A stretch of 64,000 nucleotides of DNA from assembly GCF_041361465.1 (NCBI RefSeq), contig NZ_JBGKAC010000001.1, positions 124,001 to 188,000 of the forward strand. Direction: 5' to 3'. Of the stretch, positions 44,302-49,523 are shown piece by piece. A program made the position numbers and the translations under genes. The DNA is from Halobaculum sp. MBLA0143. Lineage in GTDB: Archaea > Halobacteriota > Halobacteria > Halobacteriales > Haloferacaceae. The first letter of the stretch is position 1, and the number at the start of each line of letters is the position of its first letter. The notes below the pieces were generated by a model. It saw only the letters and a list, made by a program, of their open reading frames with translations. It had not been told where the DNA came from and searched no databases.

Positions 44302-44383
44302 GACTTCCGGTTCCACAACATCGTCCGGGTGGAGCAGACTCTGAGGCCGACGAGCTGAGTGAGCCGCGAAAGCCTCAAGTCGA

Positions 44384-44419
44384 TGTACACACTCGTACAT
44401 CGCACGACCAAATCGTACA
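44384..44419 (+). promoter_or_regulatory. Three helically phased TGTACA/CGTACA motifs upstream of trpD
   Basis: TGTACA (44384-44389), CGTACA (44394-44399) and CGTACA (44414-44419) start 10 and 20 bases apart, so all face the same side of the helix. The first two also form the palindrome ATGTAC-N6-GTACAT (44383-44400). They lie between a likely BRE/TATA (GCGAAAGCCTCAAG, about 44368) and the trpD ATG at 44422. TGTACA is the TRP box bound by the TrpY repressor in Methanothermobacter. A trp repressor operator is the natural reading, but the binding protein here is unknown. Confidence 0.55.
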
Positions 44420-44421
44420 CC

Positions 44422-45420
44422 ATGTCCATCCAGAGTCTCACAGAACGGGTGACGGACGGCGAGGACCTGAGCGTCGACGAGGCGCGGGAGGCGTCGCGGC
44501 TGGTCTTCGAGGAGGCGACGGAGGCACAGATCGGGGCGTTGCTGGCGGCGCTCCGGGCGAAAGGGGAGACGGAAGCGGAGATCGCCGGCTTCGCCCAGGG
44601 GATGCGGGAGGCGGCCCGGACGATCCAGCCGGACGCCGACCGACTCGTCGACACCTGCGGGACGGGCGGGGACGACTTCGACACGATCAACGTCTCGACC
44701 ACGTCGGCGTTCGTCGCGGCCGGCGCGGGCGTCACCGTCGCCAAACACGGCAACTACAGCGTCTCCTCGCCGTCGGGGAGCGCGGACGTGTTGGAGGCGA
44801 TCGGCGTGGACGTGGAGGCGGAACCGGCGGACGTGGAGGCGGACATCGAAGACAACGGGATGGGGTTCATGCTCGCGCCCGTCTTCCACCCGGCGATGAA
44901 GGCGGTGATCGGCCCGCGCCAGGAGTTGGGGATGCGGACGATCTTCAACGTGCTCGGGCCGCTGACGAACCCGGCGGGCGCGGACGCCCAGGTGTTGGGC
45001 GTGTACAGCGAGGCGCTGGTGCCCCAGATCGCGGAGTCGCTGACCCACATGCCGACCGAACGGGCGCTGGTCGTCCACGGCGACGGCGCAGACGAGATCG
45101 CGCTCCACGGGGAGACGACCGTTGCAGAGGTGGACGGGGACGAGGTGACGGAGTACACGCTGACGCCGGAGGATCTCGGCTTAGAACGGGCACCGGTGTC
45201 GGAGATCGCCGGCGGCTCGCCCGAGGAGAACGCGGCGGATCTGGAGGGGATCGTCCGCGGGGAGGTGACCGGCCCGAAACGGGACGTGATCCTCGCCAAC
45301 GCCGGCGCGGCGGTGTACGTCGCCGGGCTGGCAGACTCCCCGGCCGAGGGAGTGGAGGTCGCAGCCGACGCCATCGAGAACGGCGAGGCGGCGGCGGCGC
45401 TGGAGCAGATGCGGTCGTGA
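44422..45420 (+). CDS. trpD: Anthranilate phosphoribosyltransferase
   Basis: It adds phosphoribose to anthranilate, the second step of tryptophan synthesis. The 332-residue product has the PRPP-binding motif VDTCGTGGDDFDTINVST, the TVAKHGNYSVSSPSGSAD segment and FNVLGPLTNPA. These are typical of TrpD. ATG at 44422 was chosen over an in-frame start at 44359 that would run through the operator motifs. It heads trpDFEG, the haloarchaeal arrangement, in which trpCBA is separate. Confidence 0.95.
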   Translation: MSIQSLTERVTDGEDLSVDEAREASRLVFEEATEAQIGALLAALRAKGETEAEIAGFAQGMREAARTIQPDADRLVDTCGTGGDDFDTINVSTTSAFVAAGAGVTVAKHGNYSVSSPSGSADVLEAIGVDVEAEPADVEADIEDNGMGFMLAPVFHPAMKAVIGPRQELGMRTIFNVLGPLTNPAGADAQVLGVYSEALVPQIAESLTHMPTERALVVHGDGADEIALHGETTVAEVDGDEVTEYTLTPEDLGLERAPVSEIAGGSPEENAADLEGIVRGEVTGPKRDVILANAGAAVYVAGLADSPAEGVEVAADAIENGEAAAALEQMRS

Positions 45421-45466: not shown

Positions 45467-46135
45467 ATGACCAGAGTGAAGATCTGCGGCGTGACGAACG
45501 CCATCGACCTGCGAGCGGTCGTGGAGACGGGTGCGGACGCGGTCGGCCTGATCACGGACGTGTCCGCGGACACGCCACGCGAGATCGACCGGTCGACGGC
45601 GGCGGATCTGGCGGCCCGAACGCCGCCGTTCCTGACGAGCGTCGCCGTCACGATGTCGGAGACGCCGGAAGACGCCGTCGACACCGTGCGGTCGGTCGCC
45701 CCGGACGTGGTCCAGCTCCACGCCGACTTCGACGCCGAGCAGTTGGGGTACGTCCGGGCGGAGACGGAGACGCAGGTGGTGCCGGTCGTCGACGCCGACA
45801 GCCCACACCGTGCCCGGGAGATCGACGAGGCGGCCGACGCCGTCTTGGTCGACTCCACGACGGAGTCGGGCGCGGGCGGCACCGGAGAGACACACGACTG
45901 GTCGGCGACCGGGGAGCTGGCCCGGGAGCTGTCCTCTCCGGTCGTGCTCGCGGGCGGGCTCACCCCGGACAACGTCGCCGACGCCGTCCGGGTTGCGGAG
46001 CCGTTCGCCGTCGACGTGGCGAGCGGCGTAGAGCGGGCCGGCGGCGCGAAAGACCACACCGCGGTCGCCAGGTTCGTCCGCAACGCCGGGCGCGCGTTGG
46101 ACGAGCCGGCGGTCAGCGAGGGGGAACTGGGCTGA
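45467..46135 (+). CDS. trpF: Phosphoribosylanthranilate isomerase
   Basis: The 222-residue TIM-barrel enzyme carries out the Amadori rearrangement after TrpD. The catalytic Cys lies in VKICGVTN, and the acidic partner should be in VVPVVDADSPH. The phosphate-binding ends VVLAGGLTPDNV and FAVDVASGVERAGGAKD are clear. It starts 46 bases after trpD. Confidence 0.94.
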   Translation: MTRVKICGVTNAIDLRAVVETGADAVGLITDVSADTPREIDRSTAADLAARTPPFLTSVAVTMSETPEDAVDTVRSVAPDVVQLHADFDAEQLGYVRAETETQVVPVVDADSPHRAREIDEAADAVLVDSTTESGAGGTGETHDWSATGELARELSSPVVLAGGLTPDNVADAVRVAEPFAVDVASGVERAGGAKDHTAVARFVRNAGRALDEPAVSEGELG

Positions 46136-46163: not shown

Positions 46164-47822
46164 GTGACAGACCAGACACACACGAACGAGACGGCAGCGA
46201 CACCCGGGGGGGACTCCGGCGAGACGGACGGCGGGCGGGCGGTCGAGACGACGGTCGAACTCGACCGCTCGCGAGAGACGTTCCGGGATCTCGTGGCCGA
46301 CGCCGACGGACCGGTGGTCACCAGACTGGCGGCGCCGGTGCCGGCAGACGTGGAGCCGTTGACGGCGTACGCCGCCCTCTCGGAGCGGTCGGACCACTCG
46401 TTCCTGTTGGAGAGTGCACAGAAAGTGGCCAGCTCCGACCCGGACGGCGCCTTCGCCCCGAGCACGGACGACGCCGACCGACACGCCCGGTTCTCCTTCG
46501 TCGGCTACGACCCGGATGCGGTCGTCACCGTCCGGCCGGAGGAGACGACGGTCGACGCCCGCGGACCGGCCGCGGAGTACGTCGAGACGGCGACGGGAGA
46601 CACGTTAGATCGGGTCCGGGCGGCGCTGCCGGACGTGACCCGCGTCGGGTTCCCGGACCACGACCGCCAACACCTGGACGGCGGGCTCGTCGGCTTCCTC
46701 TCGTACGACGCCGTCTACGACGTGACGCTGTCGGAGGTGGGTGTCGACCGACCGACGCCGGTCGCCCCGGACGCGGAGTTCCTGCTCACCACCCGGACGC
46801 TCGTGTTCGACGACCGGACGGACAGTGTCGAACTCGTGTTCACCCCGGTCGTCGGCCCGGACGACGACCCGGACGCCGTCTACGACGAGCTACAGACGGA
46901 GGCGGCGTCGGTGGTCGAGCGACTGTCGACGGCAGCGCCGCCCGAGACCGGCGGGGTGACGGTCGACGCGGAGACTGCCGGCGCGCAGGCGGACTACGAG
47001 GAAGCCGTCGAGACGACCAAACAGCACGTCCTCGACGGCGACGTGTACCAGGGGGTGATCTCCCGCACGCGGACGCTCTCGGGCGACGTGGACGACCTCG
47101 GACTGTACGAGTCGCTGCGGGAGGTGAACCCCTCGCCGTACATGTACCTCCTCCAACACGGCGACCGGTCGGTGATCGGCGCCTCGCCGGAGACGCTCGT
47201 GTCCGTTCGTGGAGACCGGGTCGTCGTCAACCCGGTCGCGGGCACCTGCCCCCGGGGGACCTCCCCGGTGGACGACCGGCGGCTGGCCGGGGAGATGTTG
47301 GCCGACGAGAAGGAACGGGCGGAGCACACGATGTTGGTGGACCTGGCCCGCAACGACGTGCGCCGGGTGAGCGACCCCGGCTCCGTCCGGGTGGAGGAGT
47401 TCATGAACGTCCTGAAGTACAGCCACGTCCAGCACATCGAGTCGACAGTCGTGGGCACCCTCGCGGCCGACGCCGACGCCTTCGACGCGACGCGGGCGAC
47501 GTTCCCGCGTGGCACCCTCACGGGCGCGCCGAAGGTGCGGGCGATGGAAATCGTCGACGACCTAGAGACCTCCCCGCGGGGGATCTACGGCGGCGGCGTC
47601 GGCTACTACTCCTGGAGCGGGGACGCGGACCTGGCGATCGTGATCCGGACCGCGACCGTCGACCACGGTGGGTCGACGGACGAACTCGGCGTCCGGGCGG
47701 GCGCGGGAGTCGTCGCCGACTCCGACCCGACCGCGGAGTACGAGGAGACGGAACAGAAGATGCGCGGGGTGTTGGACGCGGTCGACCGGATCGCCGACCG
47801 CGACGGAGGTGGAGGGTCGTGA
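46164..47822 (+). CDS. trpE: Anthranilate synthase component I
   Basis: The 552-residue chorismate-binding subunit makes anthranilate with ammonia supplied by TrpG. It has the Trp-site region (LESAQKVASS in place of the usual LLES pattern). The chorismate domain motifs are GDVYQGVISRTRTL, NPSPYMYLLQHG, AGTCPRGTSP, LVDLARNDVRRVS, PRGTLTGAPKVRAMEI, GGVGYYSW and VRAGAGVVADSDP. The GTG at 46164 gives a normal start after a disordered acidic leader. It overlaps trpG by 4 bases. Confidence 0.95.
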   Translation: MTDQTHTNETAATPGGDSGETDGGRAVETTVELDRSRETFRDLVADADGPVVTRLAAPVPADVEPLTAYAALSERSDHSFLLESAQKVASSDPDGAFAPSTDDADRHARFSFVGYDPDAVVTVRPEETTVDARGPAAEYVETATGDTLDRVRAALPDVTRVGFPDHDRQHLDGGLVGFLSYDAVYDVTLSEVGVDRPTPVAPDAEFLLTTRTLVFDDRTDSVELVFTPVVGPDDDPDAVYDELQTEAASVVERLSTAAPPETGGVTVDAETAGAQADYEEAVETTKQHVLDGDVYQGVISRTRTLSGDVDDLGLYESLREVNPSPYMYLLQHGDRSVIGASPETLVSVRGDRVVVNPVAGTCPRGTSPVDDRRLAGEMLADEKERAEHTMLVDLARNDVRRVSDPGSVRVEEFMNVLKYSHVQHIESTVVGTLAADADAFDATRATFPRGTLTGAPKVRAMEIVDDLETSPRGIYGGGVGYYSWSGDADLAIVIRTATVDHGGSTDELGVRAGAGVVADSDPTAEYEETEQKMRGVLDAVDRIADRDGGGGS

Positions 47823-48412
47823 AGGTCGCGTTCGTCGACAACTACGACTCGTTCACCTACAACATCGTCGAGTACGTCAGCGACCACGAGCCGGACGGCG
47901 AGCCCGTCGAGACGACGGTATTGAAGAACGCCGTCGACCTGGAAGACGTACGGGCGGCCGACCCGGACGGGATCGTCATCAGCCCCGGCCCGGGCCACCC
48001 GAAGAACGACCGCGACGTGGGCGTGACGATGCCGGTCCTCCGGGAGCTGTCCCCGGAGATTCCCACACTCGGTGTGTGTCTCGGCTTGGAGGCGGCCGTC
48101 TACGAGTACGGCGGCAGCGTCGGCCACGCGCCCGAGCCGATCCACGGGAAGTCGTACCCGGTGTCACACGACGGCGAGGGGGTGTTCGCCGGGCTCGATC
48201 AGGGACTGCGCGCAGGCCGCTACCACTCGCTGATCGCCACGACGGTGCCCGACTGCTTCGACGTGACTGCGACGACCGACCACGACGGCGAAGAGCTTGT
48301 GATGGGTGTGCGCCACCGCGAGCACCCCATCGAGTGTGTCCAGTTCCACCCGGAGTCCGTGTTGACCGGTGCCGGCCACGACGTGATCGAGAACTTCCTC
48401 GGGAGCGTCTGA
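47819..48412 (+). CDS. trpG: Anthranilate synthase component II (glutamine amidotransferase)
   Basis: It releases ammonia from glutamine for TrpE. The 197-residue class I amidotransferase has the nucleophile Cys87 in GVCLGLEA, and His177 and Glu179 in VQFHPES. The oxyanion segment ISPGPGHP is also present. The residues after Cys-Leu-Gly, usually His-Gln, are Leu-Glu here. The GTG start overlaps the trpE stop, fixing the 1:1 ratio. It is the last gene of the operon. Confidence 0.92.
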   Translation: MKVAFVDNYDSFTYNIVEYVSDHEPDGEPVETTVLKNAVDLEDVRAADPDGIVISPGPGHPKNDRDVGVTMPVLRELSPEIPTLGVCLGLEAAVYEYGGSVGHAPEPIHGKSYPVSHDGEGVFAGLDQGLRAGRYHSLIATTVPDCFDVTATTDHDGEELVMGVRHREHPIECVQFHPESVLTGAGHDVIENFLGSV

Positions 48413-49139: not shown

Positions 49140-49523
49140 ATGGGTAAACACGACGACGACACAGACGCGCCGAGAGACGCTGTCGGCGAGATCGGGGCGT
49201 CCGCCGAGGAACGCCCCGAGCAGAGACGGGTCCGATTCTACCGTGCGCTGCGGGACGCCGGCTACAACGACCTCACGATCATTAGACGCGAGGACGTTGC
49301 AGACGAGTTCAACCACAGACACTTCGCAATCATCGACTATCTCCGGGAGGAGTCGGCCGACTCGGTCCGCGACCTCGCGCGCGAGCTCGGCCTCGACAAA
49401 GGGGATGTCTCCGAGGACATACAGTTCCTCTCTCGTCTCGAGATCGTCACGTGCGAGACGGACGGCCGAGCCAAGATCCCTCGCCTGAAGAAGGATCACG
49501 TCTTCGTCGAACCGCTCGTCTGA
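49140..49523 (+). CDS. Winged-helix DNA-binding protein (HVO_A0114-like)
   Basis: The 127-residue product has an acidic N-terminal arm, a helical segment (RVRFYRALRDAGYNDLTIIRRED), then a winged helix: FAIIDYLREESADSVRDLARELG, the recognition region KGDVSEDIQFLSRLEIV and a beta wing (GRAKIPRL). The ending resembles the HVO_A0114 family of putative haloarchaeal DNA-binding proteins. It is divergent from the DUF7718-like gene and likely represses the shared intergenic region. The copy at 51767-52072 is about three-quarters identical. Confidence 0.72.
   Translation: MGKHDDDTDAPRDAVGEIGASAEERPEQRRVRFYRALRDAGYNDLTIIRREDVADEFNHRHFAIIDYLREESADSVRDLARELGLDKGDVSEDIQFLSRLEIVTCETDGRAKIPRLKKDHVFVEPLV

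Follow-up and report, generated by a model that had tools for sequence, protein, structure and literature searches.

A phased four-register array in the trpDFEG promoter of Halobaculum sp. MBLA0143 as a predicted TrpY operator

Introduction

The TrpY system of Methanothermobacter, in which TrpY binds the TRP box TGTACA, includes autoregulation, and the same box recurs in the archaeal promoter described here. We analyzed a stretch of 64,000 nucleotides from Halobaculum sp. MBLA0143 (assembly GCF_041361465.1, contig NZ_JBGKAC010000001.1, positions 124,001 to 188,000; hereafter, the window), in which TGTACA-like boxes lie at 44384-44419 in the promoter of the trpDFEG operon, a likeness to the TrpY/TRP box system. 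In Methanothermobacter thermautotrophicus, TrpY represses trpEGCFBAD when tryptophan is present (PMC6737238). The genome studied here differs from that system in that two separate trp operons carry arrays and in that trpY lies apart from both of them.

Two further archaeal systems are relevant for comparison. Tar (TK0271) of Thermococcus kodakarensis likewise regulates trp genes and responds to aromatic amino acids, but it is a different protein from TrpY and an activator (PMC6737238). In Haloarcula hispanica, expression of both trp operons is TrmB-dependent, yet no TrmB site or motif was found near them, and additional factors were considered to possibly act on the operons (PMC10817205). In the open-licence literature that we searched, no regulator is described as acting directly on haloarchaeal trp operons, and the operator reported here is not described. 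Our findings name a candidate protein and two target operons, give exact positions, and suggest a phylum-wide reach for a mechanism known from a single methanogen.

Results

Four registers spaced by 10 bp precede trpD

A preliminary description of the window had placed three hexamers between a TATA-like element and the start of a trpDFEG operon and had interpreted them as the operator of a TrpY-like tryptophan repressor. The hexamers are found where it had placed them, with TGTACA starting at 44384, CGTACA at 44394, and CGTACA at 44414, i.e. 10 and 20 base pairs (bp) apart; all three lie between the TATA-like element and the trpD ATG (44422), and Pfam matches agree with its naming of the downstream genes. 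The gaps of 10 and 20 bp hide an additional register at 44405-44408. For comparison, 30 trpD loci were retained from a search of 195 genomes, and 80 loci were taken from a public genome collection. Among 86 distinct trpD promoters, the only columns with at least 95% C are 21, 31, 41, and 51, and because these four columns stand exactly 10 bp apart, the haloarchaeal alignment indicates that the element is an array of four registers rather than three, with register 3 lacking GTA but retaining the C. In the window, the four cores start at 44385, 44395, 44405, and 44415, and the third reads CGAC. The features, with the conservation of each register among the 86 promoters, which are related sequences and hence not independent counts, are as follows:

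44374-44379, plus strand: TATA-like element CTCAAG (columns 7-12 in the alignment of 87 distinct haloarchaeal trpD promoters)
44384-44389, plus strand: register 1, TGTACA (core GTAC 44385-44388; G 100%, A 99%, C 99%)
44394-44399, plus strand: register 2, CGTACA (core GTAC 44395-44398; G, C, and A 100%)
44405-44408, plus strand: register 3, degenerate CGAC (column 41, C in 100% after rounding)
44414-44419, plus strand: register 4, CGTACA (core GTAC 44415-44418; C and A 100%)
44422-45420, plus strand: trpD, anthranilate phosphoribosyltransferase (PF00591, PF02885)
45467-46135, plus strand: trpF, phosphoribosylanthranilate isomerase (PF00697)
46164-47822, plus strand: trpE, anthranilate synthase component I (PF00425, PF04715)
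47819-48412, plus strand: trpG, anthranilate synthase glutamine amidotransferase (PF00117)

The TATA-like element is degenerate in this genome; most relatives have the consensus STTAAR at this position. Registers 1 and 2 together form ATGTAC-N6-GTACAT, the relatives keep only the C of register 3, exactly 10 bp beyond the C of register 2, and register 4 ends two bases ahead of the trpD ATG, with GGTG following it in most relatives. An upstream GTG would extend trpD to 44359-45420 and add 21 residues across the operator; automatic annotation may choose this GTG, but the relatives do not support it.

The spacing of the boxes is rare. YGTACA-N4-YGTACA occurs once in the window, counting both strands, and at three distinct sites in the 3.58-Mb genome. 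When sixty 64-kb windows were simulated with a first-order Markov model of the window, a single 10-bp pair and no triple arose. Because the lone hexamer is itself abundant in the window (85 matches vs 25 expected), the evidence lies in phasing and position and not in the hexamer alone.

The phased boxes are conserved at haloarchaeal trp promoters

The trpD upstream regions align without gaps and read, in order, GACA-N2-STTAAR, RTGTAC-N6-GTACAT, YRYAANNCGAA, NGTACAT, YGGTG, and ATG. In this alignment, sequences were positioned by how well they fit a consensus written from the same set, which favors agreement, and one locus without boxes (L035) was set aside from the column counts. A spacing test that is free of such placement was applied to 103 distinct trpD promoters, and 62 of them contain exact GTAC-N6-GTAC, vs 15 of 3715 control windows from the same loci. 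Thus, the phasing that had been noted in a single genome is conserved upstream of haloarchaeal trpD, and, judged by these counts, the phased boxes are no accident.

Similar arrays are found at the second trp operon. We fetched 30 haloarchaeal trpC loci, two of which (L147 and L166) are truncated at contig ends. In 25 of the 30, CTTATGTAC-N6-GTNC-N6-GTAC, or a sequence closely resembling it, stops a short way before the ATG. The trpC registers lie at 0, +10, and +20, with almost invariant G and C; the trpC counts in the spacing test draw on these selected 25 loci and the genome studied here. Upstream of its own trpC, this genome reads CTCTTTTGTACAGATAACGCCACTGACGTACACGGATG, with boxes at 0 and +20; that trpCBA also bears phased boxes lends weight to the interpretation of the preliminary description. 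In three genomes from two other haloarchaeal families (L138, L157, and L160), in which the operon is split, the array lies ahead of trpB and not of trpC.

A model of the trpD operator built from sequence alone was scanned against 59 genomes of the order. Usually, each genome has one strong match, at trpD where positions were compared; four genomes have weak matches beside trpC (G008, G022, G045, and G049), and several incomplete genomes have no match. Four genomes have no strong match at trpD (G009, G011, G025, and G037), and three of them (G011, G025, and G037) carry the array at trpB. Among nine weaker matches that were inspected, five are at carB-like genes, one is at a second trpD copy, and three are at unrelated places. 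The carB-like promoters (L295, L296, L299, L300, and L301) share a conserved CTTATTACGATGTACG with one box resembling register 1; with a single box only, they were rejected as arrays. The second trpD copy, in G040 (L298, reverse strand ~740-800), has a GTAC and an ATAC box 10 bp apart directly before the ATG. The operator model yields little beyond trp promoters.

Arrays extend beyond the haloarchaea

We chose 30 genomes from other families of the phylum Halobacteriota, 29 of which contain TrpE; 29 regions were fetched and their trp genes mapped with the proteins of the genome studied here. Upstream of the leading trp genes, partner boxes concentrate at exactly 10, 20, or 30 bp from a GTAC, with 36 among 178 cases vs 14 among 1667 at other distances between 5 and 35 bp (odds ratio 30; Fisher p 3e-27, with pairs inside one array not being independent). 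The distances were preset from the haloarchaea while the looser partners (GTAC, ATAC, and GTAT) were picked after viewing the promoters, and these partners also served for the control. Elsewhere in these loci, partners at 10, 20, or 30 bp are not in excess. Arrays were called in 12 of 26 TrpY-positive genomes (2.2 expected from shuffling) vs none of three TrpY-negative genomes, although three are few; where homology begins only deep within the gene, the count of 12 is a minimum, and in G278 an array is visible that the calling missed. Because arrays reach beyond the haloarchaea within the phylum, the comparison favors conservation over convergence, the two origins that the preliminary description had left side by side.

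A single-copy TrpY homolog is a candidate regulator

A search of the genome for ACT-domain proteins returned a protein of 192 residues (C1:2107771-2108346) that matches the NCBIfam family TrpY_fam (NF053754) with 216.7 bits, above the curated cut-off of 180. Of the helix-turn-helix protein with an ACT or TRASH domain that the preliminary description had proposed to look for, the family membership is thus present, while the ACT domain is a sub-threshold Pfam match (13 bits vs a cut-off of 27) and TRASH gave no match in this homolog. The gene is single-copy here, each of 64 near-complete haloarchaea has one match, and across the phylum 162 of 165 near-complete genomes contain a family member. 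In an alignment of homologs from 86 loci, the best-conserved segment is around DRRVVDAT, which looks like a candidate recognition helix. A PDB sequence search with the protein gave designed ankyrin-like matches only, which we judged to be chance.

In contrast to the autoregulation in Methanothermobacter, no phased array or partner boxes were found in 86 trpY upstream regions (66 + 20). In one relative (L188), trpY follows an open reading frame that by eye resembles hisB. In a published tree, haloarchaeal TrpY homologs fall in branches of unknown function (PMC6737238).

Discussion

The array as a TrpY operator

We suggest that the element at 44384-44419 is probably the operator of trpDFEG, with four registers at 10-bp intervals that would be occupied by TrpY to repress tryptophan synthesis when tryptophan is present. 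The checks open to computation support this interpretation, as first put forward in the preliminary description; that TrpY binds here and that tryptophan is the signal we infer from family membership and the choice of target. Archaeal transcription starts ~26 bp after the TATA center. The array begins just past the TATA-like element, would cross the predicted start (~44402), and nearly reaches the trpD ATG, placing registers 1 and 2 between the TATA-like element and the predicted start, with the leader holding registers 3 and 4, a geometry that would suit repression of polymerase recruitment or initiation. In our working model, the single TrpY-family protein of this genome would bind with one subunit per register on one face of the DNA, binding would be tighter with tryptophan on the ACT-like domain, and the filled array would block RNA polymerase at the start, thereby lowering both trp operons together.

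Several points weigh against this model. L035, a locus from a metagenome-assembled genome close to the one studied here, has no GTAC boxes in the ~110 bases upstream of trpD, and its genome still holds TrpY together with a second homolog that is 38% identical. Because TrpY is near-universal in the phylum, its co-occurrence with the array has little power, and 14 of the 26 TrpY-positive loci outside the haloarchaea are without a called array, which for some reflects a promoter that was missed or lies off the contig. The regulator may also have other targets, given the recurrent weak match at carB-like genes. In Thermococcus, trp is not under the control of the homolog TkTrpY, which shares 42% identity with its Methanothermobacter counterpart (PMC6737238). 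Finally, a paper from 2026, with reference to Large et al. 2007, describes the Haloferax volcanii trpCBA promoter as 'not tightly regulated' (PMC13147458).

The alternative that survives best, which we nevertheless regard as unlikely, is that the array does serve as a trp operator but for a different conserved regulator, e.g. of the Lrp/AsnC type or TrmB-like. It gains from Thermococcus, where Tar controls trp in place of the TrpY homolog (PMC6737238), and from H. hispanica, where both trp operons follow TrmB with no TrmB sites near and the authors suggest a TrmB homolog (PMC10817205). Against it, the GTAC core matches the TRP box of TrpY, a TrpY-family member is encoded in this genome, and the array is absent from the three TrpY-less genomes examined, though these are few.

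Less probable still is that TrpY or another factor acts as an activator or weak tuner at a promoter hardly repressed by tryptophan. The description of the H. volcanii trpCBA promoter fits such a role, but the registers lie from between the TATA-like element and the start site onward, and TrmB-family proteins are reported to inhibit the recruitment of polymerase when they bind downstream of TATA (PMC10817205).

That the repeats arose by chance or as a by-product of coding or leader constraint (an extended TrpD N-terminus or an RNA element) is very improbable: the boxes are in frame with trpD behind the GTG at 44359, but relatives have in-frame stops (a TGA after ATGTAC in L013 and L041, for which we rejected the boxes as a coding part of an extended TrpD), and trpD, trpC, and trpB all have the exact 10-bp phasing, which also reappears beyond the haloarchaea, with differing spacer sequence; because it is common to separate operons, it already contradicts this explanation.

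It is conceivable, though doubtful, that tryptophan synthesis was already under TrpY control in the ancestor of the phylum, with TrpY assembling along half-boxes spaced by exactly 10 bp as a filament-like repressor and the boxes following the trp genes through operon splits and rearrangements.

Other features of the window and genome

Downstream of trpG, the window contains a small winged-helix gene of the HVO_A0114 type (49140-49523, plus strand) that has no sign of a link to the operator. Elsewhere in the genome, several of the further 10-bp GTAC pairs that were inspected overlap open reading frames or adjoin unrelated genes, and these further pairs were set aside. Between a methyltransferase gene and a kinase-like gene lies a GTACAT-N4-like dyad (G000:C1:2323977-2323994; L120), whose two GTAC cores are spaced by 10 bp.
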